This document shows, in pieces, positions 1-50,593 of a DNA stretch of 64,000 nucleotides. Source of the DNA: Paraprevotella clara YIT 11840 (GTDB lineage: Bacteria > Bacteroidota > Bacteroidia > Bacteroidales > Bacteroidaceae). How positions within the stretch are numbered: position 1 is the stretch's first letter; each line of letters starts with the position of its first letter. The DNA lies in assembly GCF_000233955.1 (NCBI RefSeq), contig NZ_JH376582.1:1-64000 (forward strand), given 5' to 3'. The position numbers and the translations under genes were made by a program. The notes under the pieces are model-generated. The model did not search any database. It saw nothing but the letters and a program-made list of their open reading frames with translations, and was not told the origin of the DNA.

Positions 1-353
1 CCTGCCACATTAATCCTCCTTGCTCCTATTGTACCACACAAACTTCATATTGCCCAAAGTGTGGCTGGAGTGCATCAGAAGAAGAATACGAATATCATCT
101 GAATAGGAAACAAGCCCCGTTTGTGTATAAGCATAAAACAGATGAAGAACGCTTTAATGAACTTAAAGATGGTGAATTTGGCTATATCTATGTAGCAAGT
201 GGTAGCAGCATTATTTGCAGAATAAGAGGAAAGCATCCTAACATGAAGCCAAAAGAAATTTATGAGAAACTTCATTTACGTGAAAACCCTGAAATGCCAA
301 GAATGAAAAAATTTACCGATACGGAATTTGAACTTACCTATTTCAACGATTAA
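1..353 (+). CDS. Zinc-ribbon phage protein, 5' end missing
   Basis: The reading frame is open from the window edge (frame starting at base 3) to TAA at 351-353. The first residues read CHINPPCSYC...YCPKCGW, so two CxxC pairs form a probable zinc ribbon near the N-terminus, followed by about 95 residues of mixed charged sequence that I do not recognise. A GTG at 123 could be an internal start, but the cysteine pairs upstream in the same frame argue that the gene begins before the window. The stop codon is one base from the ATG of the helicase gene, so the two are likely co-transcribed in the early operon. Confidence 0.7.
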   Translation, partial: CHINPPCSYCTTQTSYCPKCGWSASEEEYEYHLNRKQAPFVYKHKTDEERFNELKDGEFGYIYVASGSSIICRIRGKHPNMKPKEIYEKLHLRENPEMPRMKKFTDTEFELTYFND

Positions 354-354
354 T

Positions 355-1524
355 ATGTACAAGTTACGTGATTATCAACAGCAAGCCAGTGATGCAGCAG
401 TCAGTTTCTTTGCCAACAAAGCGAAGAAGAACAATGCCATCATGGTACTGCCAACAGGGGCGGGTAAATCAATAGTAATTGCGGATATAGCACATAGACT
501 AAATGACTATGTGCTTATTTTTTGTCCATCACGTGAAATACTCGAGCAAAATTTCAAGAAACTCTGCTCATATGGTATTCTTGATTGCAGTATCTATTCA
601 GCTTCTTTCAACTCAAAGGAAATAAGCCGGATAACATTTGCTACCATCGGTTCTGTGAAGGCTCATCCTGAACTCTTTACCCACTTTAAGAACATCATCG
701 TGGACGAATGCCATCTTGTTAATCACAAAGAGGGAATGTACAAGGATTTCTTTGATGCAGTGAAGTGTAAGGTTCTTGGCTTGACGGCGACTCCTTATAG
801 ATTGTCTTCCTCACGTGATTTCGGCTCTATGTTAAAGTTCATCACCCGTACACGTCCATGTATCTTTTCGGAAGTCATTTATCAGGTACAGATTTCTACT
901 TTGCTCGATATGGGCTATCTGGCGAAACTGGACTACTACGCCATGAATCCTATCGGATGGAACGAACTCAACCTGAAAGTGAACACCACCGGCGCCGACT
1001 ATACCGATAAATCGGTAATCAGAGAATATGAACGGATAGATTTTTACGGTTATCTTGTCCATATTGTCCAAAGGCTTATGAATCCGAAGAGTGGAGTAAG
1101 GCGCAAAGGTATATTGGTATTCACCCGTTTCCTGAAAGAGGCCGAACGGCTCACATGGAGTATTCCGGGCACGGCCATCGTTTCTGGCGAAACACCGAAA
1201 AAAGAACGTGAAAGGGTTCTCGAAGCGTTCAAGGCCGGCGAAATACCTGTCGTGGCCAATGTGGGCGTATTGACCACCGGATTTGACTATCCAGAACTTG
1301 ATACAATTGTTATGGCACGCCCCACAATGTCTTTGGCACTGTGGTATCAGATAGTCGGACGCGCCATCCGTCCCCATCCAAGTAAGAAAGCAGGTTGGAT
1401 TGTTGATTTATGCGGAAACATTAAGCGTTTCGGGGAAGTCAAGGATTTGCGCCTTGTGGACGGCGGCAACGGAAAGTGGGCAGTATATTCCGGTTACAGG
1501 CAATTAACCAATGTGAGATTTTAA
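355..1524 (+). CDS. Superfamily 2 DEAD/DEAH-type DNA helicase
   Basis: This 389-residue protein has the full set of SF2 helicase motifs: Walker A PTGAGKS at 33-39, DECH at 117-120, LTATP at 143-147, and motif VI Q332-xx-GRxxR ending at R339. Such single-chain phage helicases are ATP-driven and act in replication restart, recombination or branch migration (UvsW/RadD-like). I chose ATG 355 because MYKLRDYQQQA matches the usual N-terminus of the family, where the Q-motif-like DYQ lies just after the start; a TTG at 328 would overlap the upstream gene. It heads the replication genes. The exact cellular role cannot be read from the sequence. Confidence 0.9.
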   Translation: MYKLRDYQQQASDAAVSFFANKAKKNNAIMVLPTGAGKSIVIADIAHRLNDYVLIFCPSREILEQNFKKLCSYGILDCSIYSASFNSKEISRITFATIGSVKAHPELFTHFKNIIVDECHLVNHKEGMYKDFFDAVKCKVLGLTATPYRLSSSRDFGSMLKFITRTRPCIFSEVIYQVQISTLLDMGYLAKLDYYAMNPIGWNELNLKVNTTGADYTDKSVIREYERIDFYGYLVHIVQRLMNPKSGVRRKGILVFTRFLKEAERLTWSIPGTAIVSGETPKKERERVLEAFKAGEIPVVANVGVLTTGFDYPELDTIVMARPTMSLALWYQIVGRAIRPHPSKKAGWIVDLCGNIKRFGEVKDLRLVDGGNGKWAVYSGYRQLTNVRF

Positions 1525-11646: not shown

Positions 11647-12627
11647 TTAACCCCAGTAGTTGTTACCACATCCATAACCGCTGCGGCCATAAGCCACATC
11701 TCCGGCGTATGCACCGAAAGCTGCCGCACGGAAAGTTTCCGGGTTATATACCTGCAACTGCGGGTACGGTACCGCTACTGTGGGAGGCATCTTACACTTG
11801 ATACCATCCACATCCCCCTGCAAAGCCTGCAAGCCTGCCGCCAAAGGCGCAATCTGCTGTCCTACGGCATTCAGGATGGTAGCGTTCTGGTTACGTTGCG
11901 AAATCTCACCCTTCAATGTGGCAATCTCCGCATCCTTGGCTGCCAAAGCCTCTTGCTGACGACGCGCCTCTGCCGCATCCATTTTGGCGACAAGCGTATT
12001 AAAACCGTCACGGTAAGCATCAGCCAAAGAGCGAGTGTTACCCTCCATAGTACGGGTGAGCGTATTCATGCTTTCGCAATTTGCCAAACGGTTCTCATAT
12101 CCCTGACGTTCAATAGCTGTCTGCGTCTTGCAGCAGCAGTCGGCAATCTGAGTGAGAATGGCTTGGTTTCCGCTCTGGAAGGCGTTGATGATTTGCTGCG
12201 TGGACATGCCCACCTGGTTCCCTACACCCTGAATCAAGCCTTGGATGTTGCACAAAGCCGTCTGCAACTGTTGTGTAGAACAGTTCAAAGAAGAAGCGAG
12301 CTGGTTAATGGCATTGCCGTTACCCTGAATGGCACTCATCAGGTATTCACGACCCACATCACCGTTCAATTCAGCCGGTAATCCTCCTCCGTTACGTCCT
12401 CCGAAACCGAATCCGTTACCGCCCCAGCAGAACCAAAGCAGGATAATCCAGATAAACCACCATGAGCCTCCCCATTGGTCCTGGTTGTTGCGTCCCTGAG
12501 AAAGGAGCGCCATCAAGTTAGGATCCACTCCCTTGCCGCCCATCAGGTTAGGAAGCATGGCCATGATGTCAAACTTGTTGCCCCCACCGCTCGAAGGCTC
12601 CTGATTAAAAACATAAGTTCTCTCCAT
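11647..12627 (-). CDS. Conserved phage protein with Trp-rich hydrophobic helix
   Basis: The 326 residues fall into parts: a polar N-terminus, a hydrophobic helix at about 54-70 (WWFIWIILLWFCWGG), Gly-rich linker, a helical domain with several cysteines (LNCSTQQLQTALCNIQ, IADCCCKTQTAIE), a coiled coil at about 215-245 (AAEARRQQEALAAKDAEI), and a Gly/Tyr-rich tail. This type recurs in Bacteroidales phages with unknown function. The membrane helix plus coiled coil would fit a membrane-active or virion-ejected protein. It has its own strong promoter and a leader hairpin, so it is probably abundantly made. Confidence 0.72.
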   Translation of the reverse strand: MERTYVFNQEPSSGGGNKFDIMAMLPNLMGGKGVDPNLMALLSQGRNNQDQWGGSWWFIWIILLWFCWGGNGFGFGGRNGGGLPAELNGDVGREYLMSAIQGNGNAINQLASSLNCSTQQLQTALCNIQGLIQGVGNQVGMSTQQIINAFQSGNQAILTQIADCCCKTQTAIERQGYENRLANCESMNTLTRTMEGNTRSLADAYRDGFNTLVAKMDAAEARRQQEALAAKDAEIATLKGEISQRNQNATILNAVGQQIAPLAAGLQALQGDVDGIKCKMPPTVAVPYPQLQVYNPETFRAAAFGAYAGDVAYGRSGYGCGNNYWG

Positions 12628-12706: not shown

Positions 12707-13000
12707 TCAATTCTTTCCCAACTCATTCCCGATTCTTTCCCGATATATTCCCATCATTTTCCCACACCTCACACGCGAAGAAAAATTAGACAGCATATAG
12801 TTTACCGCCCGTTTCGTCTTGCCGACCAATGATGCAATTTGGGAAGGGTAGAAGCCCTCCTTAAAAAGGAAATACACAAGCAAGTAACGCGCATCGACGA
12901 CCTCCGCCTCCTTGCTTCCCGACAATATGACTTTGGGTGCGATTTCCGTTTCCCTGCTGACAACCTGAATAATCTCATTAAAAATATCTGCCTTACACAT
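12707..13000 (-). CDS. DnaA domain-IV-like small DNA-binding protein
   Basis: The 97-residue protein has VDARYLLVYFLFKEGFYPSQ then IASLVGKTKRAVNYML, which matches the pattern of the C-terminal DNA-binding domain of DnaA (arginine, hydrophobic helix, IA/IG turn, RxHxT-like recognition helix), but lacks the ATPase part. Such stand-alone domains occur in Bacteroidetes phages. It probably binds DNA and could regulate host or phage replication or transcription. It lies alone between a promoter region and the RNA-like element at 13.0 kb. Confidence 0.7.
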   Translation of the reverse strand: MCKADIFNEIIQVVSRETEIAPKVILSGSKEAEVVDARYLLVYFLFKEGFYPSQIASLVGKTKRAVNYMLSNFSSRVRCGKMMGIYRERIGNELGKN

Positions 13001-13021
13001 ACAATATTCAATTTTTATTCA

Positions 13022-13153
13022 TACCTTTGTCAAACCACATGACAAGGCGTTTATATACAACAATAGCTCGCGATGAAGACATAAAGCCCTCAACGCGCGA
13101 GCTATTTTCGCGTCTTGTCATGTGGTAATGCAAGGAACGTTGGGGGCTTTTTT
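13022..13153 (+). ncRNA. Candidate structured RNA with two long stems and a loop-tail pseudoknot
   Basis: A plus-strand -7 box TACCTTTG (13022-13029) precedes an element with a 13-bp perfect stem (ACCACATGACAAG 13034-13046 with CTTGTCATGTGGT 13114-13126, extendable by four more pairs) enclosing an 11-bp perfect stem (13062-13072 with 13096-13106). The apical loop AAAGCCCTCAACG (13083-13095) is complementary over 13 bases, with one G-U, to the 3' tail CGTTGGGGGCTTT (13138-13150), which runs into T7. No reading frame fills it. It points against the flanking minus-strand genes. No -33 box is clear. Confidence 0.6.
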
Positions 13154-13182
13154 TCATTCTCCCGTCCCCGAAGGAGCAAACG

Positions 13183-13740
13183 TTACTTTTTCAGCCTGTA
13201 CACAAACCTTCCGAATCCGATAAGGATACAAACAACCACAGCCAGAAGCGCAAATCCTCCGTAATGCAGCTTGGTTTCCTCCCACCACGAAAGCTTACGT
13301 TCTGCTACCTTTTCCAACGACAAACCTTCCACCTTTTCCATCAACGAATCAATCCGGTGTGAAAGCCTCAGATAGTCTGCCATGGTTTTCTCTTCCAGTT
13401 CCGTAATCTCCCGGTCTCGCCGGTCAATGCTCGTGTGGCTCTCACGTTCCTTATACTGCTTCCCGCAAGAATCCGGTTCCGACCATACCACAGTCCGCTT
13501 CTCCACCTTCAAGTCCGAAAAACGCTCCATCGTATGCCGGACGACACGTGACAACTCCATACGCAGACTGTCCACGGTATCCTCAAAAGAAGAACTGTGT
13601 CCCGTATAATCTGCCGTACGTTCCGTTTCCAAATGCTTTGAACCGGCACATCCGCATATGGCAAACAATAACAGGCCGACCACGAGCCAGAACACCGGCA
13701 CCATCAGCCAAGGCCAGAACACTTTAAAAAATCTATTCAT
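13183..13740 (-). CDS. Probable unimolecular spanin (u-spanin)
   Basis: The 185 residues start MNRFFKVFWPWLMVPVFWLV and include a lipobox-like ICGC with candidate lipidated Cys31. A periplasmic helical region of about 130 residues follows (SLRMELSRVVRHTMERF, ITELEEKTMADYLRLS), then a C-terminal membrane helix at about 163-180 (FALLAVVVCILIGFGRF) with a basic end. An outer-membrane lipoprotein joined to an inner-membrane helix is the layout of u-spanins such as T1 gp11, which fuse the two membranes at lysis. The endolysin is nearby. An Rz-like protein with only the C-terminal anchor is the alternative. Confidence 0.68.
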   Translation of the reverse strand: MNRFFKVFWPWLMVPVFWLVVGLLLFAICGCAGSKHLETERTADYTGHSSSFEDTVDSLRMELSRVVRHTMERFSDLKVEKRTVVWSEPDSCGKQYKERESHTSIDRRDREITELEEKTMADYLRLSHRIDSLMEKVEGLSLEKVAERKLSWWEETKLHYGGFALLAVVVCILIGFGRFVYRLKK

Positions 13741-13765
13741 TCCTACTTCTTTTTGTGGCAACGAA

Positions 13766-13822: not shown

Positions 13823-14971
13823 TTAATTATTCAAAGGTAGAAAACCATTATTATCAAGAGACTTAAGAACAGACCTAAGCAAATAATTACTACCAAAAGA
13901 GATAACATATTTTCTTGCTCGTTCCGAAATGGGAATTAACATTCTTTTATCAATAAGCGAACGTATGATCCTGGATATTTCTGATGAAGTCTTCGTGATA
14001 TAAAGCTCTTTTATATCTGATGCTTGTATTTCTTGTGTCTTTTTAGACACAGTTAATTTCAAAATGGAATGTTCCACATCTGTGATATATTTATTCGATA
14101 ATGCATCCGATAAAGATGGAATAAGTATCTTATCCCGCAGATAAGAATAATCCACAATATGGTCTATTTTCTCAATTTCAACCTTAAGCCCATTCAAGAC
14201 ATATTCACTCCAAGCAATCAGACCCTCGTTAGTATATTTATCAGCCAAAGACAAATAATTATAGTATTTGCTTCTATCAGAACAAAATACAGCAGTCGGA
14301 TTTATAATTCGTTGCTTACTCTTAAAGACATTCTTCAACAATAGTGCATAAGTAAACAATCGTACGACACGGCCATTTCCATTTTCAAATGGATGTATCC
14401 ACACAAAACGATGATGTGCTATACATATTTTTATTAAGTCAAATTTAGGTTTGGTTGTCTCATTGATAAAATCAACAAGTTCTTGCATCAGAGGTAGTAC
14501 CTGCAAAAAGTCAGGAGGTGTATGGAGAGACCCACTTATCCGGACATTGCATTTCCTAAATTCACCTTTTGTACAACAACCTTCCTTGCTTTCACTAAGG
14601 GAATCGACAACCAAAGAATGAAGTTCTCTTATAAAATACAATGTAATTGGAGTGTCATCAATAACACTTTCAATAAAAGAAGTTGCTTTTTCAATATTTA
14701 ATATTTCTAAAATCTGTTCATTTGACCTATTCCTATTTTCGTCATTAATTTTTGTACTCTCCACATAATCCATGATGGTTGTATTGTTTCCTTCTATACG
14801 AGAAGAACCAATACTTTCAAGCATATGGAAAACGTTTTTGATTTGCATAAAAACCAAAGGATGTGTGGTACCTTCAAGAACTTTGTATCTTAATTTTTCC
14901 AATTCAAGAACCAAATCTGTTATAGGCATATCAAATCCTATCTCAGGCATAATTATCTTTTGTTCCATCAT
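13823..14971 (-). CDS. Fic-domain protein (AMP-transferase type), class II autoinhibited
   Basis: The protein has about 382 residues. The Fic motif HPFENGNGRVVR is complete (H at about 193), so it should transfer AMP or a related nucleotide group to protein hydroxyls. An N-terminal inhibitory helix fits [ST]xxxE[GN]: SSRIEG at about 57-61. The C-terminal third is a winged-helix-like region (SEISRIIRSLIDKRML). ATG 14971 is used; GTG 14977 is in frame. The gene is more AT-rich than its neighbours, has its own promoter and terminator, and splits the lysis genes, which marks it as a moron. Target unknown; host control or exclusion of other phages is plausible. Confidence 0.9.
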   Translation of the reverse strand: MMEQKIIMPEIGFDMPITDLVLELEKLRYKVLEGTTHPLVFMQIKNVFHMLESIGSSRIEGNNTTIMDYVESTKINDENRNRSNEQILEILNIEKATSFIESVIDDTPITLYFIRELHSLVVDSLSESKEGCCTKGEFRKCNVRISGSLHTPPDFLQVLPLMQELVDFINETTKPKFDLIKICIAHHRFVWIHPFENGNGRVVRLFTYALLLKNVFKSKQRIINPTAVFCSDRSKYYNYLSLADKYTNEGLIAWSEYVLNGLKVEIEKIDHIVDYSYLRDKILIPSLSDALSNKYITDVEHSILKLTVSKKTQEIQASDIKELYITKTSSEISRIIRSLIDKRMLIPISERARKYVISFGSNYLLRSVLKSLDNNGFLPLNN

Positions 14972-14991
14972 TTGCACATTATCATTATAAC

Positions 14992-19763: not shown

Positions 19764-22700
19764 TCACGCCCTGCTTATGGTCAACACCGTGCCCGACGCT
19801 TTGTACGTCGCACCGCCAGGAACGAGCAAGAGCCACACGATGTCAGGCAGCGTGCTGCTTTGTCCCGTCTGGTAGGCGTGCCATCTTGCTGCATCCACAG
19901 AGTTTGGCACGGCCACGAGTTCCACGTATGTGCAAGATGTACTTACGACAAGAGAGGTGTAGTTTTCCACCCCGTTGTAAGATATTTTTGCACCCGACGT
20001 TTGCACGCTGCTTCCACTGTATATGTAGAGGTGCGTCCCCAAGTAGTCACCGGATGTGGGCAGTGTCACAGTGCCGCGCGAACTTCCGTCCCTTGTCGGG
20101 AAACAGAAGAATCCCCCTTTCTTCAATACGTCCCTCGTCACCGTGACGCTGTTATTGTTGGGGTCCACCTGTGGTACGGTCTTCATGTAACCCGAAAATT
20201 CCCCACTTCCTATTTTCAGAACCCCGTCTGCGTCCACGCTCGCCGTCACTTCTCCGTCATTGTTCTGTATGACAAACTGGTCGCTCGTCACGGTGATTTT
20301 TTTGTTTATCACGTCTATTCCCGTGGCAAGTTCCCCGTCATGTTTCCCCTCCACGAATCCTGAAGGCAAACTTCCTGTCAAGTCCCCTTCAAAAACCATG
20401 ATGCTGTCAAAATACAACGTACGGCTTGTCGTTTGTCCCGCCGTTCCAAGGCGTAATACAAGATAATTGCTTCCACTCGGAGCGGTAACCTTATATGCTT
20501 TCCTTGTCCATGCCGATGTAAATTGAGGTTGGAAAGCTGTGAATCCAGCCAGTTCAAGCTGGTCGTTTTTTGAAAAGTAAGCCCCTGTCGCACCGCCGCT
20601 TTCTGTAAAAGTGGACGTCGCCCGTATCCACATGACTATGGTATATACTTTTCCGGAAACAACTGGAATTTGCGCACGCCCTACATATACCCATGAATTC
20701 CCTGTTACACATTGTATTTTCAAACTTTTGCTACCATGTATATGTGAGGACGTGTCAATTGAAACCGTACAATTTGACAGGTTTCGGTTCGCCAATCCAC
20801 CGTTTTCAAAACTTCCATCCGGGAAAATATTGTCCGGCCAAATACTATCCACCTTTAAAGAAATCTTGCTCGTCGTCTGCTCCAAAGTGCTCACATCCCC
20901 TTGTATGCCTTGTACCGTAGTTTTCAGACTGCTTGCCGTCTGCTCCACGGTACTCACCCTCGTGCCCAAGGAACTCACCTGCGATGCCGTGCTATTCACC
21001 TTCCCGTCAATGGCCGATATTTTGGACGTGTTGGTCTCCACTTCCTTTTCAAGACCCGTCACGGAATCAACCACGGTAGTGACCTTGGTAGACATCACGC
21101 CGAATTCATTCTCAAGCATGACGAAATCCGCATGAACCTTTTCATAAACATTCACAGCGTCACCCACGACAGGGACTCTTTGTGTACATCCCCCCATGAG
21201 TGTACTCCCGTCATAAAGGTAGAACACTATCTCCGTGGTGGATTGTGTGATGGCTACAGCTCCTGTGTAATTCTGTACCGAACTATCCTGGCCTACACGT
21301 TGGTATTTCAACGTTTTCTCCGTAGTCTCCTGTTGTGTGTTGCCCACACATTTGAATTTTTTGCAAGTCACGGACGTCGGGGTTAACTTGTTGTCCCAAG
21401 ACTTCTTCACCACATTTGCCGAAGGCTCTATGGTATAGAATACAGCATCATCCCCCTTGGGACCCGTCGCCCCGGTGGCGCCCGTGTTGCCCTTGAAAGC
21501 CACGGAAAATGAGAAATTCTTCGTGAAGGACTTCCCGTCCACGGTGATAGGCACGGTCAGCACGCCCTGTCCGGTAGTCAACGAAGAAGTGACGGACACC
21601 GTGAACGAGGCCGATGTGGTTCCGTTGCTTGAAATGCTCGTGGACATTCCCGACGGTGCTCCGGTTATAGTACCAATCGTTGCCGACACCCTTGTGGCAC
21701 CCTTGTATGCGATAACCTCGCATTTCGTGGATGCAGCGATGGCCGCGCTCGTCGTTCCTTGGAAGGCATGCGATTCGTTGCCAAGAATTACGGTGTAGGC
21801 ATCCGCGCCGTTCTTACCATCTGCACCGTCCTTTCCATTCGTGCCATTCGTGCCATCCTTGCCATTCGTGCCATCCTTGCCATTTGTCCCGTTGGTACCC
21901 GAAGAAACCTTGGCTATCGTCATCTCGTCATATACACCGCCCGATGTGCAACGTATGGTCACAGACTTCGCGCTGCCCCAAACCGTTGAATTGTTATGTG
22001 CCAAGGCATAAGTCTGCGAAGTGGCTCCCGATATGTTCGTGAAAGAAGTCTGTCCCGCCTGTTTATAGCTCCACTGGTAGCCGGATGTCCCCGTGAGGGT
22101 GGCCGTCAGCGTAATGGAGGTAGGTGTGGGATTCCCTGAAAAATTATTGGCGTATATAAACACCTGGTCGCCCGCAACCCTCACGTACTTGGCCGCCGTG
22201 CCGTCCGTACCGTAATAACTCACGGAATACACTGTCGTCGGGTCACTCTTCTTGTAAGTCGTCACCGTTTTCGTCCAAAGGTATTTACCTTTCTGTGGCG
22301 AAGGTACGGTTGCGCTCCAGCTTCCTGTCGGTGCCGTCGTGCCGGAACTGCCTATCTGGTAAGTGTTCGATACCGACACGATGCCGTCACCGTCAGCTCC
22401 TGCGGGTCCCGTATCGCCCTTGTCACCTTTGGCTCCGTTAGCCCCCATCTTACCCACGCTGTACGACGTGGATGTGGTATTGTCCGTGTAGGTTATAACC
22501 GTACGCGTCCAAAGGTACTGGTTGGCGGCCACGGAAGGGATAGAACCGCTCCACGTCCCCGTGGGCGGCGTGGTGCCCGATGTGCTTACCTGATAAGTCA
22601 CGGCGGTGCTCTTGATGCCTTTCCCGTCCGCACCGTCGTCACCTTTGAACTTAGACCACGTGTAATCCGATGGAGTATTGCTCTCTGTGGCCGTTGTCTT

Positions 22701-25700
22701 GTTTACTGCTATGCCGATGTACTGTGTCGTGGATTTGGGAGTGTCATACATCCCGCTGCCCGTCGAGTTATCGGAATACTTTATCCATGTGTAAGTGGTT
22801 TTCCCGTCAGCCCCTTTTGCCCCCGGAACACCTTGGTCGCCCTTTTCGCCTTTGATAAGTGACCATGTGTAATCCGAAGGGGTGTTGCTTTCCGTGGCGG
22901 TGGTCTTGTTATAAGCAAACCCGATATAAGTTTTTCCCGTAGGAGAGTTGCTGATGCCCGAACCCGATGCGTTGTCAGCATAGCGTATCCAAGTATAGCG
23001 GGGCGTCCCGTCCGCACCCTTTGGACCCTGTACTCCCTGTGGACCAGTATCACCCTTATCCCCATAAGTACCGATAATCACCGGACTGCTCGTATATTTC
23101 GTATCATTGGTGTAAGTCACCACCTCATAGTTCCAAAGGTACTTCTTGGAAGATGAAGTGGCCTGTACCGAAGTCGTCCATCCTGACGTTGAAGTTGTCA
23201 CTCCACTCGATGACGAAGAGGCCAAATAATATTCCGTAATGGACTTGATACCCACACCCGTCGCCCCGGTGGCGCCCGTGTTGCCAGTATTCCCGTATAC
23301 ACCTATGACCCTCTTTTTGGTCTCGCTTGTCGTGCTGTTGGTATAGGTGACAATTTCATAATTCCACAGATAACGGTTCGTGGCAGTCATTGTCGGCACC
23401 GTATCGCTCCACGATGTCGGCGCGGTGGTGTTCGATGCGGATACGGCATACTTGTTGGTTATGGACTTGATGCCCACTCCGTTTGTGCCGTCCGCTCCGT
23501 CCGCTCCCGCCTTTACTTTATATACAGAGAATACCGCAGATAGGTCTGTCTTTCCGCTCTTCTTGGCCGTGACTGTCACCGTGCCAGTATCCGCGCTTAC
23601 CCCCGTGACCGTGATTTGTCCCGTCGATGAGTTCACGCTTCCGGAACATCCGGAGAATGCACCCGTAAACGCCCAACCCGTATCAGGTTCCGTGCCATAA
23701 TATACCGTGGCCTTGCTGCTCGGGAATCCGCCGGTCACGTTCCCCGAAGCGTCACACGACACCGGGCCGCCGTCGTTGTCCAAGTCCAGATAGTAATGCC
23801 CCGCACGCGCGGCATCCTCCACAGCCTGATTCGCCTTGTTCGTCGCATCGTCCGCAGCTTTCTTGGCCGCAGCGGCAATCGCATCGAGGATGGTCTTCCG
23901 CGCATCGTAGTAGGCCGATATGTTCGCGTAGTCACTGCCCACCGTGATATATTCCGGTGATGAAGCCGTATATTTCGTCAGGGCAGCGTTGGCAAGGTCA
24001 TAGGCCGACTTGTAAGCCGTGGTGGACACGGCATAGCGTGAGGCGTTGGCAGTAATCTCCCCGTATTCCGAACGGATGTCCGCTTGCTGCTGTTTCAGGG
24101 CTGTCTTTTCGATGGGGGATATGAGGTTGTCGCTCTTGATGTTCGCCAGCTCCTTGTTGGCATTCGTGGCATCTACCTGCGCGTTCTTGGCCGCTTCCGC
24201 CGCGTCATCTGCCGCCTTTTGGGCATCCTCTATCATCCCGTTCACGTCCTCTATGGCGGGAGACCACGCCGTAGCAACGTTCCCTTTTTCGAGCTTCATG
24301 TTTTTGATACATATGTAACTTAATGAGTTGAAAGGGAATCCGAAATACAACACTTGGGAATCCTTTGAGGACAGGCCGTTTGTCACAAGGTTCAATGCCA
24401 CGTGCTTCTTCTTGTTGGCCTCGAAGCTGAACGAAGGACTGTTGGTAAGGTCCCCTTTGAAATCAGTATTCTTTATTCCTAGTAATGACTTGTTTGATGC
24501 GTTTGAAAGGATGTCGAAGCTCAACGTATAGGTGGTGTCGGCTTCAAGCAAATCCAATGTCCCGTTGAGGTTATAATAAAAAATACTCCAAGAAGAAGGT
24601 TTTTTTATCAACTCTATCTTCACGCCTTTCACTCCCGAATCTACCCATTCGGAGACAACGAAGTTCCCCGTCCCCTCATTCGTATTTGCGTACCACCTTT
24701 TCTTCCCTTGGTTGGTCTCCATAAGAATGTTACGTCCACCGACTTCAATCCCCGCCACCACCTTGTCCGCGTACGCCTTCGCTGCGTCCGAGATGGCCGA
24801 CAGGGCGGCACTCTTCTGCGTATAGTACGCCGTGCGCTTCGTGGAGAAGTCCGAAGGGATGGCCACGGTCTCCGAAGAGGAAGACACCACGCCGTTGATG
24901 GCCGTCCGGTAGTTCGTGTAAGCCGTGTTATAGGCCGTAGGAGTGCCGAGGCCGTACTTCGTGTAACCGTCCGTGACCTGCGTCTTGTCCCCGTCGATGC
25001 GGGCAAGCTCCTCCTTCAACTGTTTCTTTTCAGAAGGGGAGAACTTGCCGTCGGCCGCCCATTCGTCCATGCGCTCCTTCTCGGCGTCCACGTCCGCCTG
25101 CGCCTTGTCGGCGGCATTCTTCGCCGCCGCCGCGTCCTCTATGGCCTGCGAGGCGTTCTCCGCCGCCGCGTCAGCCGCCTCTTGCGCGTTGTCGGCCAGT
25201 TCCTTGGCCTTGGCCGATATGGCGTTCAGCAAGTCCGTGCGTGCGTCATAGTAAGCCTTGAACTTCGCCCTGAACTCCGTGCCCGTGATGTTGCTCGTGG
25301 AGCTTAAATCTGACAATAGGGGCGTTATATACGTGCTTAATGCCGTGTATGCAGAGCCGTAGGCTGTCTTGGATACGCCGAACTTGTCAGCCGAAGCGTC
25401 GTTTTTAGGCTTCTCGGACACTATCACGTCCCATTCCTTCTTGGTCTGCTGTTTCTCCTGCGCCGTGAGCTTGTTGTCGTTGGCGATGTCCGAAAGCATG
25501 GAGTTCGCCTCGTCGGCATCGGTCTGGGCGTTTTTCGCGGCAGTGGCCGCATTGTCTGCGGCAGTCTTGGCCTCTATGGCCTTTTGTGCCGCCTCGCTCG
25601 CCGATTCTGCCGCCTCATCTGCCTTCGCGGCAGCGTCGTCTGCCGCCTTTTTCGCCGCGTCCGACGCTTCCTTGGCCTTTGCGGCGATGGTATCCAATAT

Positions 25701-28700
25701 CGTCTGCCGTTTGGAATAATAGGCGGAGATGTCCGAATAGTCGGATTCCACGGTGATGTATTCGGGAGTGGAGGCAGTGTATTTGGTAAGCGCGGCATCG
25801 GCCTTCTTGTACGCGGCCTCATAGTCCGTCACGCTTATGGAATACTTTCCGGCCTCCGCCGTTATCTGCCCGTGTTCCGCCTTTATGTCGGCATGCTGTT
25901 GCTTCAGCGCGGTTTTCTCCACCGGGCTTATCGTGCCGTCGGATTTCAGGTTGTCCAGCTCCGTGTTGGCGGCTTGTGCTTCCGTCTTGGCTTCCCCTGC
26001 CGTGGCGGCGGCTTCGTCGGCGGCTTCCTGTGCCGCATTCGCGGCCTCCGCAGCCTCCCGTGCGGCCTCTGCCGCCTCGTTGGCCTTCGTATCGTCTGTA
26101 TAGCGTGAGGCAAGCTCCCAATGCGAGATGGAGAAAGCCTCATTCTCTTTCTTGGCGGTCTTGCAACGCAGCAGGTCGTTCTTGTACGTATCCCCGTAAG
26201 TCGCGTTCACCCAAAGGTCGCCCACGTCGTAAGCCTGCCCCGTGGTGGGTTGGCTGACGAATACCCTGCGTTTGCCGTCAGCCGTATCCTGCGCCTTGGC
26301 AGCAGCGGCCAAAGCCTTTTCCGTGGCCGTGTCCGTGATGGGGTTCCATTTCCACGTGTCACCGTCCTTCACCCATTTCCAGCTCTTGCCCGTGCTGAGA
26401 TTGGTATAAGTGTCGTTTGAATGCGCCTGTTTCTGTTCTTCGGTGGTCCACTCGTTCGCCGGGTAGTTGGAGGTTGTCGGGTCGGTTTTACCATAGTGGC
26501 TTTCTATTACACCGTCAACCTGGTCCTGCAAGTCCTCGATGATCTTCTGTAGGGCGGCGATGTAATTCTGCTGCTCCGCCAGACGTTCCACCGCGTCCTC
26601 CACCTTTCCGCTCACTTCATCCACTTTGCTTTGTACGTCTCCCACCGCGCCGTTGATGTATTCCTTCACCGTCTCGCCGGTGGACAATTTTATATTGTCG
26701 GAGATAATCATGACATCTTCCCGTGAGAGGTTGACAAACTCCTTGCCTTCCAGTTTGTAAGAGTTGATTCCCCGGTACATCTTGAAATAAGGGGCATCGT
26801 TCCCGTATGCCGAAAGGATAATGGCCGCCTGTCGGGCCACGTCATTCCGGTTTCCCAACTGGACGATTTCGTCACCGGCGGCCGGTACCGTGCTCCCCGC
26901 ATCGCAGTCCGTCTTCGAGAGGTCTATGTAGTTGTCCCCCACGCCCGTCACCAGACGCCAGTAATAAGTGTTCTTCACGTTCTCGTTCACGCCCTCCTTC
27001 ACGTTGAACGTCTGGGCGCGTGCCTGGTCACCGGCGACAAACTGGTTCTCCACCGTCTTTACCCCGTCCGTCGCCTCGAAATAGCAACGGTAGGCACTCC
27101 CCGTATCTTCCACACGGATGCACTTCATCGAGGCCGGGGTAAGCACGATTTGCCCGCCCACGTGCTTGATTTCCTGAATCACAAGCTGGATGAACTCGGC
27201 CACCTTGCGCACAAGCATTTCGTCCACCTCAAGGCGACTGCTTCCCTGTTCGTTCATTTTCAGGCACAGCCCCGAGCCAAGCGCACCCGAAGAGAATCCA
27301 GGAGACTGTATGCCTTTGGCCGTTACCATCCCACGCACAAACACGCTCAGAAGTTCCGCAGCACCGTCCTCGCCAATCTTCGCGCCCCGATTCCCGGCCA
27401 CGTACTTGCCAACCTCCAAAGCGCCCATTAACAGCAGTGAAGCCAGTTCTGCATCCCCTTCACTGCCGATACGCCCTCCGCTTTCACCTGCCTGGTAGTC
27501 ACCAAACAACATGTCTTTCAAGAATGTAAGGATGCCCTGTACCGTATCATCCTTCAATTTTGAAACGAACTTGTTGTCAAGTTCCCGGTTGTTCTTATTG
27601 ATGCTATCCTTTATCTCCTTGTCTGTCCTTAACGAAGAATAAGCGTTTGTATCCGACGGCTCGGTTTCGTCATCCTTCTTTATCAAATATACATTTGTAC
27701 CGGAGGTTGAAGAACTTACCTTTCCAGAGAAGTAACTGCTTCCATTCAGCTTGATGGAATCAATCTTGTCTTCAAGTGCGCCAAGACGGGAATAGGAAGC
27801 ACTTTCACCTATAGTATATACCGGAGAATCCCATGGAATGTCAAGTGCAAGTTCATAGCCAAGTACGCGCATGGTACGGGGGCTTGGGAAGAATGAAGAG
27901 TTGTTTACCCTCACTTTTTGGCCGACACCGAAAGGACAAGGCGTATCCTGTGTCTCATTACGTGCCTTTGACCAGTCTGACATGAGTTTGGCCGACACGG
28001 TGCCGATATTGTTCCTGATTTTTTCGGCATATTTTTCTGTTTCCGTTTTCAGTTCCTCTTCCGCTTCCGGGACAAGGTTCTCAAAGACATATTCCGTGTC
28101 GTATCCGGCCATGACAAAATCATTCCCGGCCTCCGGCTTCATTACAGTATCTGGTAAACGGCCTCCGTAATCCTCATTGGCCACGATTTCAAAGCATGTG
28201 GACGTATCGTCACTCTTCTCCGGAAGGAACGTCAATCCAAAGGTAAGTCCGGCAAGCCTGCCCGTTTGGAAAGTGACCGTAAGTTCCTCTGAAATCACAT
28301 AGGACTTGTCGAACCCCACAAGTCCGGTGGTCTTGATGGTGTACACCGGTACTTTCATTCCTGTGGGTTTCTTTTCTTCGCCTTCCGTGACATCAATCAT
28401 TTCCTCTTCGACAGAGGATATTGAAAGCACCTTGCGTGGATAGACGTAGTCGAAAGTCACGATACCCTCTATCACTTCGTCGGGTGACATGTCGGGGTAA
28501 ACGTCTATGTACGGTGTGCCTTCAGGAAGCATCAGCCTGCGTTGTACAACCCCGTTTACAGTAAGACCGTCCACGTCGGAATCAAAATAGCCGAGGGGTA
28601 CATTCCCTTTCACAAGCCCTTCTATTGTGAATTTGGCACCTATATATAGTTTGTCGTTTGACGTGGTTTCGTATAATAAGGTAGCATGCTCGTCCGTATA

Positions 28701-30011
28701 TGGCATGGCATTACGGTTGATGGTTACTCCTATTTTGTGGTTGCCTCCGTCATCACTGACATAATTCACATCCGTTTCCACGTAACCATATACAGAACCC
28801 AATATGCAATCACCCACAATGGTATATGGAATATATGTGACCAATGGGGATACACAAGAATATGTGATGCGCAAATACAGTTTACGTATTGCCTCGTACG
28901 GGCTTTCAAATCTTTCCTTGGACAGCCTGAGCGTTTTGTTTGAACTGTCAATGGTATAGCTTGATTCCGACAACACCGTGCTTGAATCATTTCCGGATGC
29001 CACTATTTCCACTCTTACATCCAATACGGCATTGGGGAATGATGAAAAATCATAGCTGAATACCATGGAAGACAAATCAAGTACATAAGCGGATTTGTAT
29101 AGTTGCATGGCATTTATGGTAATACTGTCATACAACTCATATTCTTCCACGTCCGGAGTGGCCAAGCTTGCGGACACCGAACCTACACCATCCATCTGTT
29201 TTTCATAAGAATAATACTTTATGAGGTCTTTCCTGAAAAAAGACGGATTTACAGGCTTCTTGCTGTCATTAAAGTCGCTTTTGTTTCCAGAACGGTTAAG
29301 CGTGTCTATGGTGAACTCCAGTTTCTTCCGGTACCGGCTGGATATGTTTTGCGTGGAGCCAAAGGCGTATATGCGCGTGAAATAGTCACCGCTGCTCTTG
29401 GACAGGCTCATGGTTTCTGCTTCTTCGCCAAGGCTTATTTCCACCGCTTCCCCCTTCTCACAGCGGCCGAAACGGATTTTCTTGTCTTCCATCCACCACT
29501 CGCAGTTTGCGGCTTCCGCAAGGGAGGTAAGGGCATCAATGAGGTTGGTGTTGGAATAGTGCATGACCAAGGCATCCACATTCACATCATTGTCAATCTC
29601 GTATTCATAGTCCTCATCGCCAGATTGGAATCCCCATACTTTCAGGTTACGCAGGAAGATGTCAAGATGGTATGACAATTGCGCCGTCAAATCCCAAGCG
29701 GCTTCATTTCCTCCTGTTTCCGGTGTGTACTTGAAGATCTTGTTCTTCCACTTCATGTAAGAGGCTTCCATCTTCAACTCATAGTCATAACCGCCCGTGG
29801 AATTGTTGAAAGATGGCTTTTGGTCTTCTATGATTTCAAAACGGCCAAAATCACATTCTGCATAACATCCCATTTTGAATGATATGGGATTAAGCAAGGA
29901 AAATTTGAGCGTGATATAGTCATCTTTCATCAACTCAAATTTTCGCTTGCTACCTACACCTATCGGTGTGGACAAAACTAATACCTCGTTGTTATCCTTT
30001 ATCTCTATCAT
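19764..30011 (-). CDS. Giant tail-tip / central tail protein, 3415 residues
   Basis: Residues 1-800 look like a siphovirus baseplate hub (opening MIEIKDNNEVLVLSTPIGVG). After about 1150 come Ala-rich helices with four copies of a module of about 100 residues, each beginning like SDGTISPVEKTALKQQ and ending near ISAYYSKRQTILD. A jelly-roll carbohydrate-binding-like domain (GRNILMETNQ ... GNVATAWSP) separates copies three and four. Then five or more repeats of GIKSI...YLW and DYTW type joined by collagen-like Gly-X-X stretches, an Ig-like domain, a long coiled region, and a second jelly roll near the end. It should span the tail tip and reach the cell surface. Confidence 0.88.
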   Translation of the reverse strand: MIEIKDNNEVLVLSTPIGVGSKRKFELMKDDYITLKFSLLNPISFKMGCYAECDFGRFEIIEDQKPSFNNSTGGYDYELKMEASYMKWKNKIFKYTPETGGNEAAWDLTAQLSYHLDIFLRNLKVWGFQSGDEDYEYEIDNDVNVDALVMHYSNTNLIDALTSLAEAANCEWWMEDKKIRFGRCEKGEAVEISLGEEAETMSLSKSSGDYFTRIYAFGSTQNISSRYRKKLEFTIDTLNRSGNKSDFNDSKKPVNPSFFRKDLIKYYSYEKQMDGVGSVSASLATPDVEEYELYDSITINAMQLYKSAYVLDLSSMVFSYDFSSFPNAVLDVRVEIVASGNDSSTVLSESSYTIDSSNKTLRLSKERFESPYEAIRKLYLRITYSCVSPLVTYIPYTIVGDCILGSVYGYVETDVNYVSDDGGNHKIGVTINRNAMPYTDEHATLLYETTSNDKLYIGAKFTIEGLVKGNVPLGYFDSDVDGLTVNGVVQRRLMLPEGTPYIDVYPDMSPDEVIEGIVTFDYVYPRKVLSISSVEEEMIDVTEGEEKKPTGMKVPVYTIKTTGLVGFDKSYVISEELTVTFQTGRLAGLTFGLTFLPEKSDDTSTCFEIVANEDYGGRLPDTVMKPEAGNDFVMAGYDTEYVFENLVPEAEEELKTETEKYAEKIRNNIGTVSAKLMSDWSKARNETQDTPCPFGVGQKVRVNNSSFFPSPRTMRVLGYELALDIPWDSPVYTIGESASYSRLGALEDKIDSIKLNGSSYFSGKVSSSTSGTNVYLIKKDDETEPSDTNAYSSLRTDKEIKDSINKNNRELDNKFVSKLKDDTVQGILTFLKDMLFGDYQAGESGGRIGSEGDAELASLLLMGALEVGKYVAGNRGAKIGEDGAAELLSVFVRGMVTAKGIQSPGFSSGALGSGLCLKMNEQGSSRLEVDEMLVRKVAEFIQLVIQEIKHVGGQIVLTPASMKCIRVEDTGSAYRCYFEATDGVKTVENQFVAGDQARAQTFNVKEGVNENVKNTYYWRLVTGVGDNYIDLSKTDCDAGSTVPAAGDEIVQLGNRNDVARQAAIILSAYGNDAPYFKMYRGINSYKLEGKEFVNLSREDVMIISDNIKLSTGETVKEYINGAVGDVQSKVDEVSGKVEDAVERLAEQQNYIAALQKIIEDLQDQVDGVIESHYGKTDPTTSNYPANEWTTEEQKQAHSNDTYTNLSTGKSWKWVKDGDTWKWNPITDTATEKALAAAAKAQDTADGKRRVFVSQPTTGQAYDVGDLWVNATYGDTYKNDLLRCKTAKKENEAFSISHWELASRYTDDTKANEAAEAAREAAEAANAAQEAADEAAATAGEAKTEAQAANTELDNLKSDGTISPVEKTALKQQHADIKAEHGQITAEAGKYSISVTDYEAAYKKADAALTKYTASTPEYITVESDYSDISAYYSKRQTILDTIAAKAKEASDAAKKAADDAAAKADEAAESASEAAQKAIEAKTAADNAATAAKNAQTDADEANSMLSDIANDNKLTAQEKQQTKKEWDVIVSEKPKNDASADKFGVSKTAYGSAYTALSTYITPLLSDLSSTSNITGTEFRAKFKAYYDARTDLLNAISAKAKELADNAQEAADAAAENASQAIEDAAAAKNAADKAQADVDAEKERMDEWAADGKFSPSEKKQLKEELARIDGDKTQVTDGYTKYGLGTPTAYNTAYTNYRTAINGVVSSSSETVAIPSDFSTKRTAYYTQKSAALSAISDAAKAYADKVVAGIEVGGRNILMETNQGKKRWYANTNEGTGNFVVSEWVDSGVKGVKIELIKKPSSWSIFYYNLNGTLDLLEADTTYTLSFDILSNASNKSLLGIKNTDFKGDLTNSPSFSFEANKKKHVALNLVTNGLSSKDSQVLYFGFPFNSLSYICIKNMKLEKGNVATAWSPAIEDVNGMIEDAQKAADDAAEAAKNAQVDATNANKELANIKSDNLISPIEKTALKQQQADIRSEYGEITANASRYAVSTTAYKSAYDLANAALTKYTASSPEYITVGSDYANISAYYDARKTILDAIAAAAKKAADDATNKANQAVEDAARAGHYYLDLDNDGGPVSCDASGNVTGGFPSSKATVYYGTEPDTGWAFTGAFSGCSGSVNSSTGQITVTGVSADTGTVTVTAKKSGKTDLSAVFSVYKVKAGADGADGTNGVGIKSITNKYAVSASNTTAPTSWSDTVPTMTATNRYLWNYEIVTYTNSTTSETKKRVIGVYGNTGNTGATGATGVGIKSITEYYLASSSSSGVTTSTSGWTTSVQATSSSKKYLWNYEVVTYTNDTKYTSSPVIIGTYGDKGDTGPQGVQGPKGADGTPRYTWIRYADNASGSGISNSPTGKTYIGFAYNKTTATESNTPSDYTWSLIKGEKGDQGVPGAKGADGKTTYTWIKYSDNSTGSGMYDTPKSTTQYIGIAVNKTTATESNTPSDYTWSKFKGDDGADGKGIKSTAVTYQVSTSGTTPPTGTWSGSIPSVAANQYLWTRTVITYTDNTTSTSYSVGKMGANGAKGDKGDTGPAGADGDGIVSVSNTYQIGSSGTTAPTGSWSATVPSPQKGKYLWTKTVTTYKKSDPTTVYSVSYYGTDGTAAKYVRVAGDQVFIYANNFSGNPTPTSITLTATLTGTSGYQWSYKQAGQTSFTNISGATSQTYALAHNNSTVWGSAKSVTIRCTSGGVYDEMTIAKVSSGTNGTNGKDGTNGKDGTNGTNGKDGADGKNGADAYTVILGNESHAFQGTTSAAIAASTKCEVIAYKGATRVSATIGTITGAPSGMSTSISSNGTTSASFTVSVTSSLTTGQGVLTVPITVDGKSFTKNFSFSVAFKGNTGATGATGPKGDDAVFYTIEPSANVVKKSWDNKLTPTSVTCKKFKCVGNTQQETTEKTLKYQRVGQDSSVQNYTGAVAITQSTTEIVFYLYDGSTLMGGCTQRVPVVGDAVNVYEKVHADFVMLENEFGVMSTKVTTVVDSVTGLEKEVETNTSKISAIDGKVNSTASQVSSLGTRVSTVEQTASSLKTTVQGIQGDVSTLEQTTSKISLKVDSIWPDNIFPDGSFENGGLANRNLSNCTVSIDTSSHIHGSKSLKIQCVTGNSWVYVGRAQIPVVSGKVYTIVMWIRATSTFTESGGATGAYFSKNDQLELAGFTAFQPQFTSAWTRKAYKVTAPSGSNYLVLRLGTAGQTTSRTLYFDSIMVFEGDLTGSLPSGFVEGKHDGELATGIDVINKKITVTSDQFVIQNNDGEVTASVDADGVLKIGSGEFSGYMKTVPQVDPNNNSVTVTRDVLKKGGFFCFPTRDGSSRGTVTLPTSGDYLGTHLYIYSGSSVQTSGAKISYNGVENYTSLVVSTSCTYVELVAVPNSVDAARWHAYQTGQSSTLPDIVWLLLVPGGATYKASGTVLTISRA

Positions 30012-37477: not shown

Positions 37478-38553
37478 GCCAACATCGTATCCAAATCAAG
37501 AATTACAATCTTATTCGGAGCCGTATATTCCGGAATCCATTCACAACCGTATTCCATGAAGCGGCCTTCTTCCGTTCTTACATTGGAGATATACATACCT
37601 CCTTCCGAACGGGTGTAGTTTTTACCCGGAACAGGGTCTGTGATTTCATACGGAGTGTGCCAACGCATCTTTCCTTGCTTAGCCGTGGTGAACAATGAAA
37701 TGCGGTTATCCTTGAATACCTGCTTCATTGTACCGTCAGCAAGTTCTACCAAATCCTCATTGATAACAATAGGTGGAAAGCCTAATCCCTGGAAAATCGT
37801 AGTAGCCATTTCACTCGACATCAAGCCGGAAGAAAGTTGCACCTCTTTCTGCGCAAAGGACTGTTTATAGAAATCACCGAAATCCTTTGAGCCGACAATC
37901 GACTTGATGAAGGTCTTACGAGACATTTCCATAGAAACAAACATACCAAACTTGGTACGAAGTTCGACGACCTGCTCCATAAGGTATTTTATGAAGTTGC
38001 TCTTATCTCCCGTTGTTGGAGTGATACGATGTACAGGCAATTCCATATCAAGCATGGCAATACCTTGTGGATTGTCATCCACTTTCACCGTTGCCTTGCC
38101 GTCAGAACGCAGGGCACCATCAACTAAGTCCATACGCTTATGTGGAGCAAGCAATACTTGGCGATAATCATCCACAATATAGTTGATAATATCGTTTAAT
38201 GCTCTTTGCTGGTCTGCCGGACGAGCGTTGTTGTACTTGGTTACAAGCTCCTGTAACATATCCAACCTGTCATTGTCCATCTGGTAACGGTCACCCAAAT
38301 AGGCGACTTCACCATAACCTGAACCGAGAGATTTTCGCTCTCTTAACGGCTTGTTAGAATTTCGGTCGATAACGGAACCGGCTGTAACACCCGTAACCGT
38401 ACCGAGATAAGTTTTAAACACGCGAGACTTCGTTTCCTCGAAATCAAGGTGCTTCTTCCAGAAAATAGTATCAAGACGGAGAGCCTGCACACGGTCAATC
38501 ACCGCTTTTACTATTTCAGGGTCATTCAATAATGTCTGAACTGTCAAATACAT
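37474..38553 (-). CDS. Major capsid protein
   Basis: The 359 residues begin MYLTVQTLLNDPEIVKAVID, followed by DTIFWKKHLDFEETKSRVFK, as in the lambda gpE-like branch of HK97-fold capsid proteins (Trp/Phe-rich opening and a conserved second part). MSSEMATTIFQGLGFPPIVI and KMRWHTPYEITDPVPGKNYT occur in the C-terminal half. It follows scaffold and head-protein genes and precedes the connectors, the normal order. No long N-terminal delta domain is present, in line with a separate scaffold. Confidence 0.85.
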   Translation of the reverse strand: MYLTVQTLLNDPEIVKAVIDRVQALRLDTIFWKKHLDFEETKSRVFKTYLGTVTGVTAGSVIDRNSNKPLRERKSLGSGYGEVAYLGDRYQMDNDRLDMLQELVTKYNNARPADQQRALNDIINYIVDDYRQVLLAPHKRMDLVDGALRSDGKATVKVDDNPQGIAMLDMELPVHRITPTTGDKSNFIKYLMEQVVELRTKFGMFVSMEMSRKTFIKSIVGSKDFGDFYKQSFAQKEVQLSSGLMSSEMATTIFQGLGFPPIVINEDLVELADGTMKQVFKDNRISLFTTAKQGKMRWHTPYEITDPVPGKNYTRSEGGMYISNVRTEEGRFMEYGCEWIPEYTAPNKIVILDLDTMLA

Positions 38554-50355: not shown

Positions 50356-50392
50356 AACTTTTAGGATAAACAATGGGTAAACAAATTCAGGT

Positions 50393-50513: not shown

Positions 50514-50519
50514 CTACCG

Positions 50520-50593
50520 TGACCCCGGAGGGATTCTAACCCTCGACCTTCAGAACCGGAATCTGACGCTCTATACAGCTAAGCTACGGAGCC
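50520..50593 (-). tRNA. tRNA-Arg(CCG), probable phage attachment site
   Basis: Read on the minus strand, 74 bases fold as a cloverleaf: acceptor GGCTCCG/CGGGGTC, D stem GCTT/GAGC, anticodon stem TCAGA/TCTGA with loop TTCCGGT (anticodon CCG), variable AGGTC, T stem GAGGG/CCCTC and discriminator A. No CCA is encoded. Two acceptor pairs are G-U (2-71 and 4-69), position 19 is T instead of G, and position 56 is A instead of C. The integrase gene starts about 165 bases beyond the 3' end, as for tRNA-integrated phages. The 3' half may be phage-supplied. Confidence 0.9.

Follow-up and report, generated by a model that had tools for sequence, protein, structure and literature searches.

A fast-diverging family of predicted pseudoknotted RNAs encoded opposite the late genes of Bacteroidales phages

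The locus and its proposed RNA

The window, that is, the whole 64,000-nucleotide stretch of Paraprevotella clara YIT 11840 DNA analysed here (contig NZ_JH376582.1, positions 1 to 64,000), holds an integrase-type prophage, in which a tRNA-Arg gene (50519-50593) adjoins the integrase gene (49156-50373). Its minus strand encodes the terminase, an SPP1-type portal, the major head protein and the tape measure, and the order continues with a lysozyme, a Fic protein, a 192-aa late protein, the gap that harbours the RNA, a 97-aa helix-turn-helix (HTH) gene and a 326-aa protein. The RNA element sits in the gap between the open reading frames 12707-13000(-) and 13183-13761(-). The latter, the preceding late gene, belongs to phrog_35356 (function unassigned), and its stop codon faces the 3' end of the RNA. 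The former is the small HTH gene, which lies on the late-operon strand, divergent from the RNA, and is DnaA_C-like. PADLOC gave no match for either of these two flanking genes. A preliminary description of the locus, made from the sequence alone, had proposed a phage regulatory RNA pointing against late genes and abutting a DnaA-domain gene. Prophage genes do surround the RNA and its place holds, while the match of the small gene to Pfam Bac_DnaA_C (E 3.6e-5, 24.2 bits) falls below the curated cut-off of 31.5. The same description saw no reading frame here, and the gap is indeed intergenic, except that a mechanical frame, 12839-13042(+), the only one of at least 50 aa at the RNA, clips its first bases.

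Three other genes of this late region deserve mention. The Fic protein (13823-14977, minus strand) has SoFic as its best PADLOC match (E 1.5e-42), and a 3415-aa open reading frame occupies 19764-30011(-). The 326-aa late protein (11647-12627, minus strand) is akin to 'spike/outer capsid' proteins of crAss-like phages, a similarity by which its gene is a cassette shared between these phages and an integrative prophage.

From its 5' side, the element begins with a match to the TAnnTTTG promoter -7 box (TACCTTTG, 13022-13029, plus strand, as are all features that follow). The proposed RNA gene, delimited by its structure and by covariance-model matches, runs from the start of the outer stem to the end of the U tract (13034-13154) and measures up to 121 nt. 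The outer stem, P1, comprises 17 pairs in the RNAfold structure (13034-13050 with 13110-13126), which lengthens a perfect core of 13 bp (13034-13046/13114-13126). The inner stem, P2, is a perfect 11-bp helix (13062-13072 with 13096-13106) and is hypervariable among homologues. Its loop contains a strand (AAAGCCCTCAACG, 13083-13095) that pairs with the tail (CGTTGGGGGCTTT, 13138-13150), adjoining the U tract (T7, 13148-13154), and this loop:tail pseudoknot consists of 13 standard pairs, 12 of them Watson-Crick and one U.G. A further helix, P4, is placed at 13114-13117 (CTTG, overlapping P1) and 13131-13134 (CAAG) on the basis of a family-level test; in the window it is weak, at -3.8 kcal/mol, and partners from six other sequences score better. 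Downstream, at 13159-13176, stands a hairpin (CTCC/GGAG) whose CCCC loop is complementary to the G-run of the tail.

The observation behind the preliminary description is thus confirmed: the box, the 13-bp outer stem, the 11-bp inner stem, the 13-base loop-tail match and the T7 are all present, with the coordinates it gave. Its claim of a structure far above chance is likewise borne out, since the MFE of the RNA is -55.4, against -31.3 +/- 3.6 for 200 dinucleotide shuffles (z -6.6), none of which is as good. The opposite strand folds too (z -7.6), as expected of inverted repeats, so that folding energy alone cannot give the strand. A search for tandem repeats inside the window RNA found none. 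To the features described earlier, the present comparison adds the P4 helix, the downstream C-run, hypervariability and a spread to Hankyphage.

Distribution and sampling of the homologues

DNA similarity searches of phage records with the RNA returned matches at chance level only, and homologues were therefore sought through the neighbouring gene and with covariance models. Exact loop...tail patterns retrieved close relatives only, in five viral stretches and in one of 393 genomes, the own genome. Where the HTH gene has relatives, in viral contigs and in genomes, most of them are accompanied in the same place by an opposite-strand RNA that shares the anatomy but differs in sequence. Four such relatives (L043, L044, L077 and L078) lack an RNA of this anatomy. 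There, AAAGCCCC...GGGGCTTTTT encloses the gap and the double stem is absent; this element may represent a simpler form related to the RNA, and neither covariance model matched in L043 or L077.

The first model, R1, was built from seven HTH-linked RNAs and starts at the promoter box. It matched the remaining HTH-linked copies given to it and, without any HTH input, 32 of 399 family genomes, in 12 of 30 genera. The sequence was inspected for 30 of these matches, the other two being weak (28 bits), which places the RNA in about 7.5% of the sampled host-family genomes (30/399, leaving aside the two weak matches). Among 393 genomes sampled from the order, four gave a match: the own one, two that belong to another family (L137 and L138) and a false one (L139, 36 bits), which was rejected as an ordinary terminator-like hairpin with no tail. 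A 34-bit match at L129:105-271 was excluded as an unrelated inverted repeat, and partial reverse-strand model matches were kept out of the comparison. The own genome carries a second copy on contig C65, found with R1, and a third at C29:48740-48901(-) (L147), found with the second model, R2. From a search for relatives of the spike-like gene, seven of 32 records were taken, NC_055893 and OR296439 being searched over their first 48 kb; R1 and R2 had no match in five of the seven, the others being L087 and L089.

In total, 46 distinct sequences from viral contigs, phage records and genomes were compared, the window included. They were hand-picked from the R1 matches, with near-identical copies omitted (among them L038, L039, L042, L045, L053-L055, L095-L099, L106, L108, L110 and L135). 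Counts of neighbouring genes refer to 48 loci, namely these 46 plus L137 and L138. For covariation, 27 divergent sequences were used, and for the swap tests 27 representatives with less than 80% identity; the inverted-loop sequence L073, described below, is not one of these representatives, being more than 80% identical to an earlier one. L071 and L046 fell below the E-value cut for the alignment, A6, and stand outside the 27 covariation rows but inside the permutation and loop:tail tests. L121 was mis-segmented, its 'P2' being the pseudoknot strand, and its row in the helix permutation tests is unreliable.

Covariation of the helices

Each of the 28 pairs modelled in the two stems (13 of 13 in P1 and 15 of 15 in P2) shows two-sided compensatory change among the 27 divergent sequences, and 96.1% of the 711 cells are paired. 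The covariation score amounts to 0.828, compared with 0.08-0.15 when the partners are slid by 1-3 columns, and none of 500 shuffles reaches any of the five covariation measures. As A6 was fitted to the structure and hence leans towards it, complementarity was also tested free of alignment, by pairing each 5' segment with its own or with a foreign 3' segment in the 27 representatives. Own partners bind better on average than swapped ones in P1 (-18.7 versus -8.3 kcal/mol), in P2 (-23.2 versus -7.4 kcal/mol) and in the loop:tail helix (-22.5 versus -17.7 kcal/mol), with 0 of 2000 permutations as good in each case. The own partner is the best of all in 20 of 27 sequences for P1, 27 of 27 for P2 and 13 of 27 for loop:tail. 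This swap test is generous for P1 and P2, because their segments were picked by their own pairing; for loop:tail and P4, the positions of the stems and of the G-run set the windows.

The loop:tail helix is present in all 46 sequences as an uninterrupted run of 9-15 standard pairs, or in 38 of 46 by a stricter Watson-Crick count. Its presence is not in itself covariation, because the G-run and the C-run are conserved: all 27 loops form at least eight pairs with their own tail, but so do 526 of the 702 combinations of a loop with a foreign tail, and 12 of the 27 loops when their own tail is reversed. When the conserved G-run is left out, the covariation signal of this helix is weaker, at 1 in 5000 permutations. 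In 43 of the 46, a CCCC or CCCTC motif lies no more than 45 nt from where the G-run begins. P4 joins the segment after P2 with the linker just before the tail, as in TGTTAATA/TATTAACA, TGATTGTA/TACAATCA and CGTTTGCAG/CTGCAAGCG. Its own-partner energy of -6.6 kcal/mol compares with -3.6 for swapped partners (0/5000; own partner best in 8 of 27), with windows that were redefined once, the first version having given -5.9 versus -3.3 (0/2000; own best in 7 of 27).

The preliminary description had proposed compensatory changes in its helices as a check and stems broken without compensation as a refutation. The former are found in both stems and, more weakly outside the G-run, in the loop-tail pairing; the latter were not found in any of the 46 sequences, L073 included. 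Compensatory change in several helices marks these sequences as a conserved structured RNA family, one that appears to be new. What the comparison shows is a structured element, about 105-150 nt long, that is composed of P1, a hypervariable P2, the loop:tail pseudoknot, P4 and a U tract.

Strand, predicted promoter and terminator

An A.C mismatch on the RNA strand corresponds to G.U on the other, so that the two are informative about the strand on which the fold is kept. Inside the helices of the 46 sequences there are 70 G.U and 9 A.C positions, besides 36 other mismatches; the counts come from related sequences and the events are not independent, yet the direction is clear. By part, the G.U:A.C ratio is 25:1 in loop:tail, 44:7 in the stems and 1:1 elsewhere, in a few chance helices; among the 27 representatives it is 15:0 in P1 and 18:6 in P2. 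Because internal G.U exceeds A.C to this extent, the promoter strand is taken as the folded strand, and the bias suggests that it is the RNA fold that has been conserved.

The TA..TTTG box, which corresponds to the Bacteroides -7 consensus TAnnTTTG as published in the consulted part of PMC7366714, is found in 27 of 27 representatives, a count that is not fully independent as R1 starts at the box. In the 41 loci linked to an HTH-like gene the box occurs 41 times on the RNA strand and once on the other, where shuffles expect 5.7%. P1 follows the box at a distance of 0-4 nt in all 46 sequences, close to the expected transcription start, and on this spacing the window RNA would start at 13034, slightly earlier than the position of about 13036 proposed before. 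At the other end, a run of at least three T follows directly upon the G-run of the tail in 46 of 46, and the loop:tail helix ends 0 nt (44 sequences) or 1 nt (2) before it; on account of this abutment it is regarded as the putative terminator helix. Judged by its sequence, the element has the makings of an independent small RNA gene with its own promoter and intrinsic terminator. Most likely, the gap in the window makes a small, tightly folded RNA whose shape, rather than its sequence, is kept in many related phages.

Hypervariability of the stems

The pace at which the RNA diverges varies among pairs of loci. Between L056 and L058, the HTH side is 98-100% and the next 50 nt on the tail side 98% identical, compared with 62-80% for the RNA, in which both stems and the length of the loop:tail region have changed. 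No such variable island separates L064 from L067 (RNA 76-81%, HTH side 80-94%). Nor do the alleles of RNA and HTH gene travel together: L056 and L058 have the HTH gene in common and not the RNA, while L059 and L079 share most of the RNA and not the C-terminal part of the HTH protein.

A comparison of L073 (2540-2694) with L079 (2829-2981) reveals an inverted inner loop, with one arm copied from the other and similar flanks. This is likely a template-switch event, or else an assembly artefact. The inverted loop of L073 still pairs with the tail through 12 pairs, four of them G.U. Template switching may supply variation while keeping the arms alike.

Genes beside the RNA and the Hankyphage copy

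At 41 of the 48 loci, a small gene divergent from the RNA begins at a distance of 14-25 nt from the box, and it is DnaA_C-like (23), Mor-like (15) or of a third kind (3). The matches to Pfam Bac_DnaA_C and Mor lie below the curated cut-offs, and the third kind, which found no Pfam helix-turn-helix support, is called HTH-like from its sequence. The DnaA_C-like loci are a biased set, because most were found through that gene; the 18 loci of the other two kinds were found through the RNA. The remaining seven loci have none of the three. Two of these (L111 and L117, from two genomes of one genus) show the RNA near a tRNA gene in what is apparently one host locus, possibly a domesticated remnant, and since no small gene is present there, the RNA can outlive its supposed target.

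The element usually lies within a run of opposite-strand genes; at L127, those before the RNA look, by eye, like ParA and not like late genes. In 40 of the 41 HTH-linked loci there is no TA..TTTG box for the HTH strand between the gene start and the tail. For that reason the HTH gene is probably reached by read-through of the late operon, the box being the only promoter type considered.

In the record of Hankyphage p00, BK010646, the RNA is found antisense at positions 40548-40693, within the gap 40529-40709. That gap is flanked by a DUF4376-like gene and by a small gene called 'Mor transcription activator domain' in related records. Neither the p00 nor the BKO1-TP1 record annotates anything in this gap. 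The RNA is one gene away from the reverse transcriptase of the phage, which is annotated with a DGR template and a variable repeat, the template repeat of p00 lying elsewhere, at 38419-38534. Hankyphage is a widespread gut prophage under experimental study, yet its RNA is unannotated in p00. Stranded RNA-seq exists for a Hankyphage lysogen, B. thetaiotaomicron jmh43, both with the repressor silenced and without, according to the sections seen of PMC12135933.

Relation to known RNAs

Rfam 15, run over the whole window at gathering score, detected only a tRNA. At E <= 1, the region 12900-13300 gave only mir-4529, on both strands (E 0.73-0.75, 18.2 of 88 bits). Across 12 homologue loci (L008, L009 and ten others), the only match at the RNA was ohsC, on the opposite strand of L082 (E 0.86, 30.9 of 50 bits). 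A literature search for such an RNA found no description.

Structured antisense RNAs of phages are already known, and this family is set apart from them because of its pseudoknot before the U tract, its P4 and its rapid allele turnover. Plasmid copy-control RNAs such as CopA and RNAI are fast-diverging structured antisense RNAs whose alleles define compatibility. The family resembles them in structure and rapid divergence, the compatibility-defining alleles belonging to CopA/RNAI; it differs in giving no sign of replication control, in its pseudoknot and in its late-operon place. The promoter of lambda OOP RNA adjoins the start of gene O, and GOLLD, one of the ornate RNAs, is linked to prophages and is much larger. 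Apart from this difference in size, the family RNA has no Rfam match; it shares with GOLLD and other ornate RNAs that these are structured bacterial RNAs, as covered in the accessible part of PMC12286853. OOP is, like the family RNA, a small phage antisense RNA (PMC12197685 and PMC7067206, in the parts available); in the text seen it overlaps the 3' end of cII, whereas the family RNA, at the loci examined, lies almost wholly within a gap and is more structured.

Two further cases offer closer precedents. STnc6030 of the Salmonella prophage BTP1 is, in the available portion of PMC7067206, antisense to late genes and abolishes infection by BTP1 but not by P22. The likeness lies in a prophage RNA antisense to late genes, with allele-specific superinfection exclusion shown there and proposed for the window RNA. 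STnc6030 is, however, 786 nt long and overlaps the coding sequences of tailspike and DNA-injection proteins, and that portion of PMC7067206 mentions no conserved fold, whereas the window RNA is intergenic, about 120 nt long and of conserved structure. The c4 RNA, which decides the heteroimmunity of P1 and P7, is likewise a phage antisense RNA with structure, and its action centres on a ribosome binding site; its target is the mRNA of the antirepressor ant and not a late-operon HTH gene, and no pseudoknot is mentioned (all in the part seen of PMC12197685). The Hankyphage papers PMC12135933 and PMC6199706, in the parts available, contain no description of the RNA.

Possible functions

The RNA is encoded opposite to the late operon, beside the start of the small gene, and, with read-through assumed, it has the appearance of a regulator of late genes in its own phage. 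To this extent the interpretation in the preliminary description is supported, the word 'regulatory' being its inferred part. The reading preferred here, with a probability of roughly 0.4, is that the RNA regulates the late operon as an allele-specific antisense RNA and that the pseudoknot serves as its terminator helix; this reading is favoured because of the place of the RNA, its fixed coupling to the small gene, the turnover of alleles and the precedents. The RNA would be made in the lysogen from a housekeeping-type promoter, and termination would have to wait for P2 to form and for the P2 loop to capture the tail, the loop:tail helix acting as terminator. Being the exact complement of any late-operon mRNA extending as far as the HTH gene, the RNA would pair with read-through or incoming late mRNA, and this pairing would block HTH translation or expose the mRNA to RNase III, leaving the operon silent. 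Recognition would be confined to the same allele, as in homoimmunity, and this would drive the stems to diversify. On induction, late transcription would sweep over the RNA promoter and outnumber the RNA. If the RNA is such a regulator, it would offer a handle on the silence of gut prophages and on which of them coexist.

Several observations speak against an antisense role, and some of them point to a structured RNA that acts in trans through its shape, its antisense place being a free slot beside a promoter. A cis-antisense RNA can do without a pseudoknot, without P4 and without a conserved motif at its apex, and the loop from which pairing should start would be hidden in the pseudoknot. The seven loci without the small gene, the unmatched alleles of RNA and HTH gene, and the missing turnover island of L064/L067 fit an antisense regulator poorly. 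In G257, moreover, two 99.9% identical prophage ends carry the same RNA, so that exclusion of the same allele is not absolute; transposition can explain the case. A trans-acting RNA might bind a host or phage protein, such as a nuclease, an RNA chaperone, a defence factor or, as 6S RNA does, RNA polymerase; alternatively, it might titrate another RNA. Such an RNA would account for a shape and a tail motif kept while the stem sequence turns over, for a G.U bias that reflects selection on the RNA's own fold, for the copies without an HTH-like neighbour, and for the lack of unusual complementarity elsewhere in the prophage, where the longest stretch has 11 bases compared with 10-14 for 100 shuffled RNAs. 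It leaves the strict spacing of 14-25 nt to the start of the small gene at 41 of 48 loci without a reason, and Rfam provides no match. A 6S mimic in particular would be expected to conserve the sequence of its duplex, where P2 is hypervariable, and the RNA has no Rfam match to 6S RNA. Taken together, a trans-acting role is a tentative option that stands close behind the antisense one.

Two further explanations are tied to the DNA or to the other strand, and the G.U bias weighs on both. An element acting on the late-operon strand or its transcription, as a roadblock of opposing promoter and terminator or as an mRNA hairpin that sets the ratio of HTH to late products, would agree with the strong folding of the minus strand, with the usual position inside a run of other-strand genes and with the conserved pair of G-run and C-run beside the U tract (43/46). 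It is nonetheless unlikely, as the 70:9 excess of G.U on the RNA strand over the mRNA strand, seen in P1 and P2 alike, and the placement of both promoter box and U tract favour the RNA strand. A DNA palindrome without RNA function, serving as a site of replication, packaging or recombination with arms kept alike by template switching, would explain why the inner arms are often perfect and why the inverted loop of L073/L079, with its copied arm, bears the signature of hairpin template switching. Template switching predicts no excess of G.U, however, and the promoter box at a fixed distance and the U tract also count against this account, which is highly improbable. Least probable of all is membership in a known RNA-centred system. 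Proximity to the DGR reverse transcriptase in p00 might hint at a retron or DGR RNA, and pseudoknots occur in type III antitoxins. The p00 template repeat lies elsewhere, however, and no reverse transcriptase match was found among the window neighbours scanned, a subset of the open reading frames. In type III toxin-antitoxin systems, the gene for a ToxN-like toxin is preceded by pseudoknot repeats in tandem; the window RNA has no tandem repeat, and its flanks, a DnaA_C-like HTH gene and a late protein, are blank in PADLOC.

A bolder reading is more doubtful: the RNAs might form a new phage class that is kept by shape and terminated by a pseudoknot stem, its stems serving as an identity tag by which each allele recognises its own kind. 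If true, a self/non-self RNA code would be common to different phages of the human gut, Hankyphage included. Whatever the function, the family offers a natural test of an intrinsic terminator built from a pseudoknot and of fast-changing stems that stay paired.

Other elements encountered

An 18-base stretch of the window RNA matches exactly a multicopy hairpin element (TTTATATACAACAATAGCGACTG...CAGTCGCTATTGTT) found in many family genomes, several times at contig ends (seen in L019, L020, L023, L024, L026, L028, L029 and L030). A relation between the two was rejected, because the stem differs and the 18-base stretch is not conserved in the RNA family; the match is probably due to chance. Lastly, L008 contains, at 306-369(-), a sub-threshold match (47.4 of 56 bits) to FopS (RF04319), a Bacteroidetes sRNA family; it lies some 1.1 kb away from the copy of the RNA that G087, a genome of the same genus, carries.
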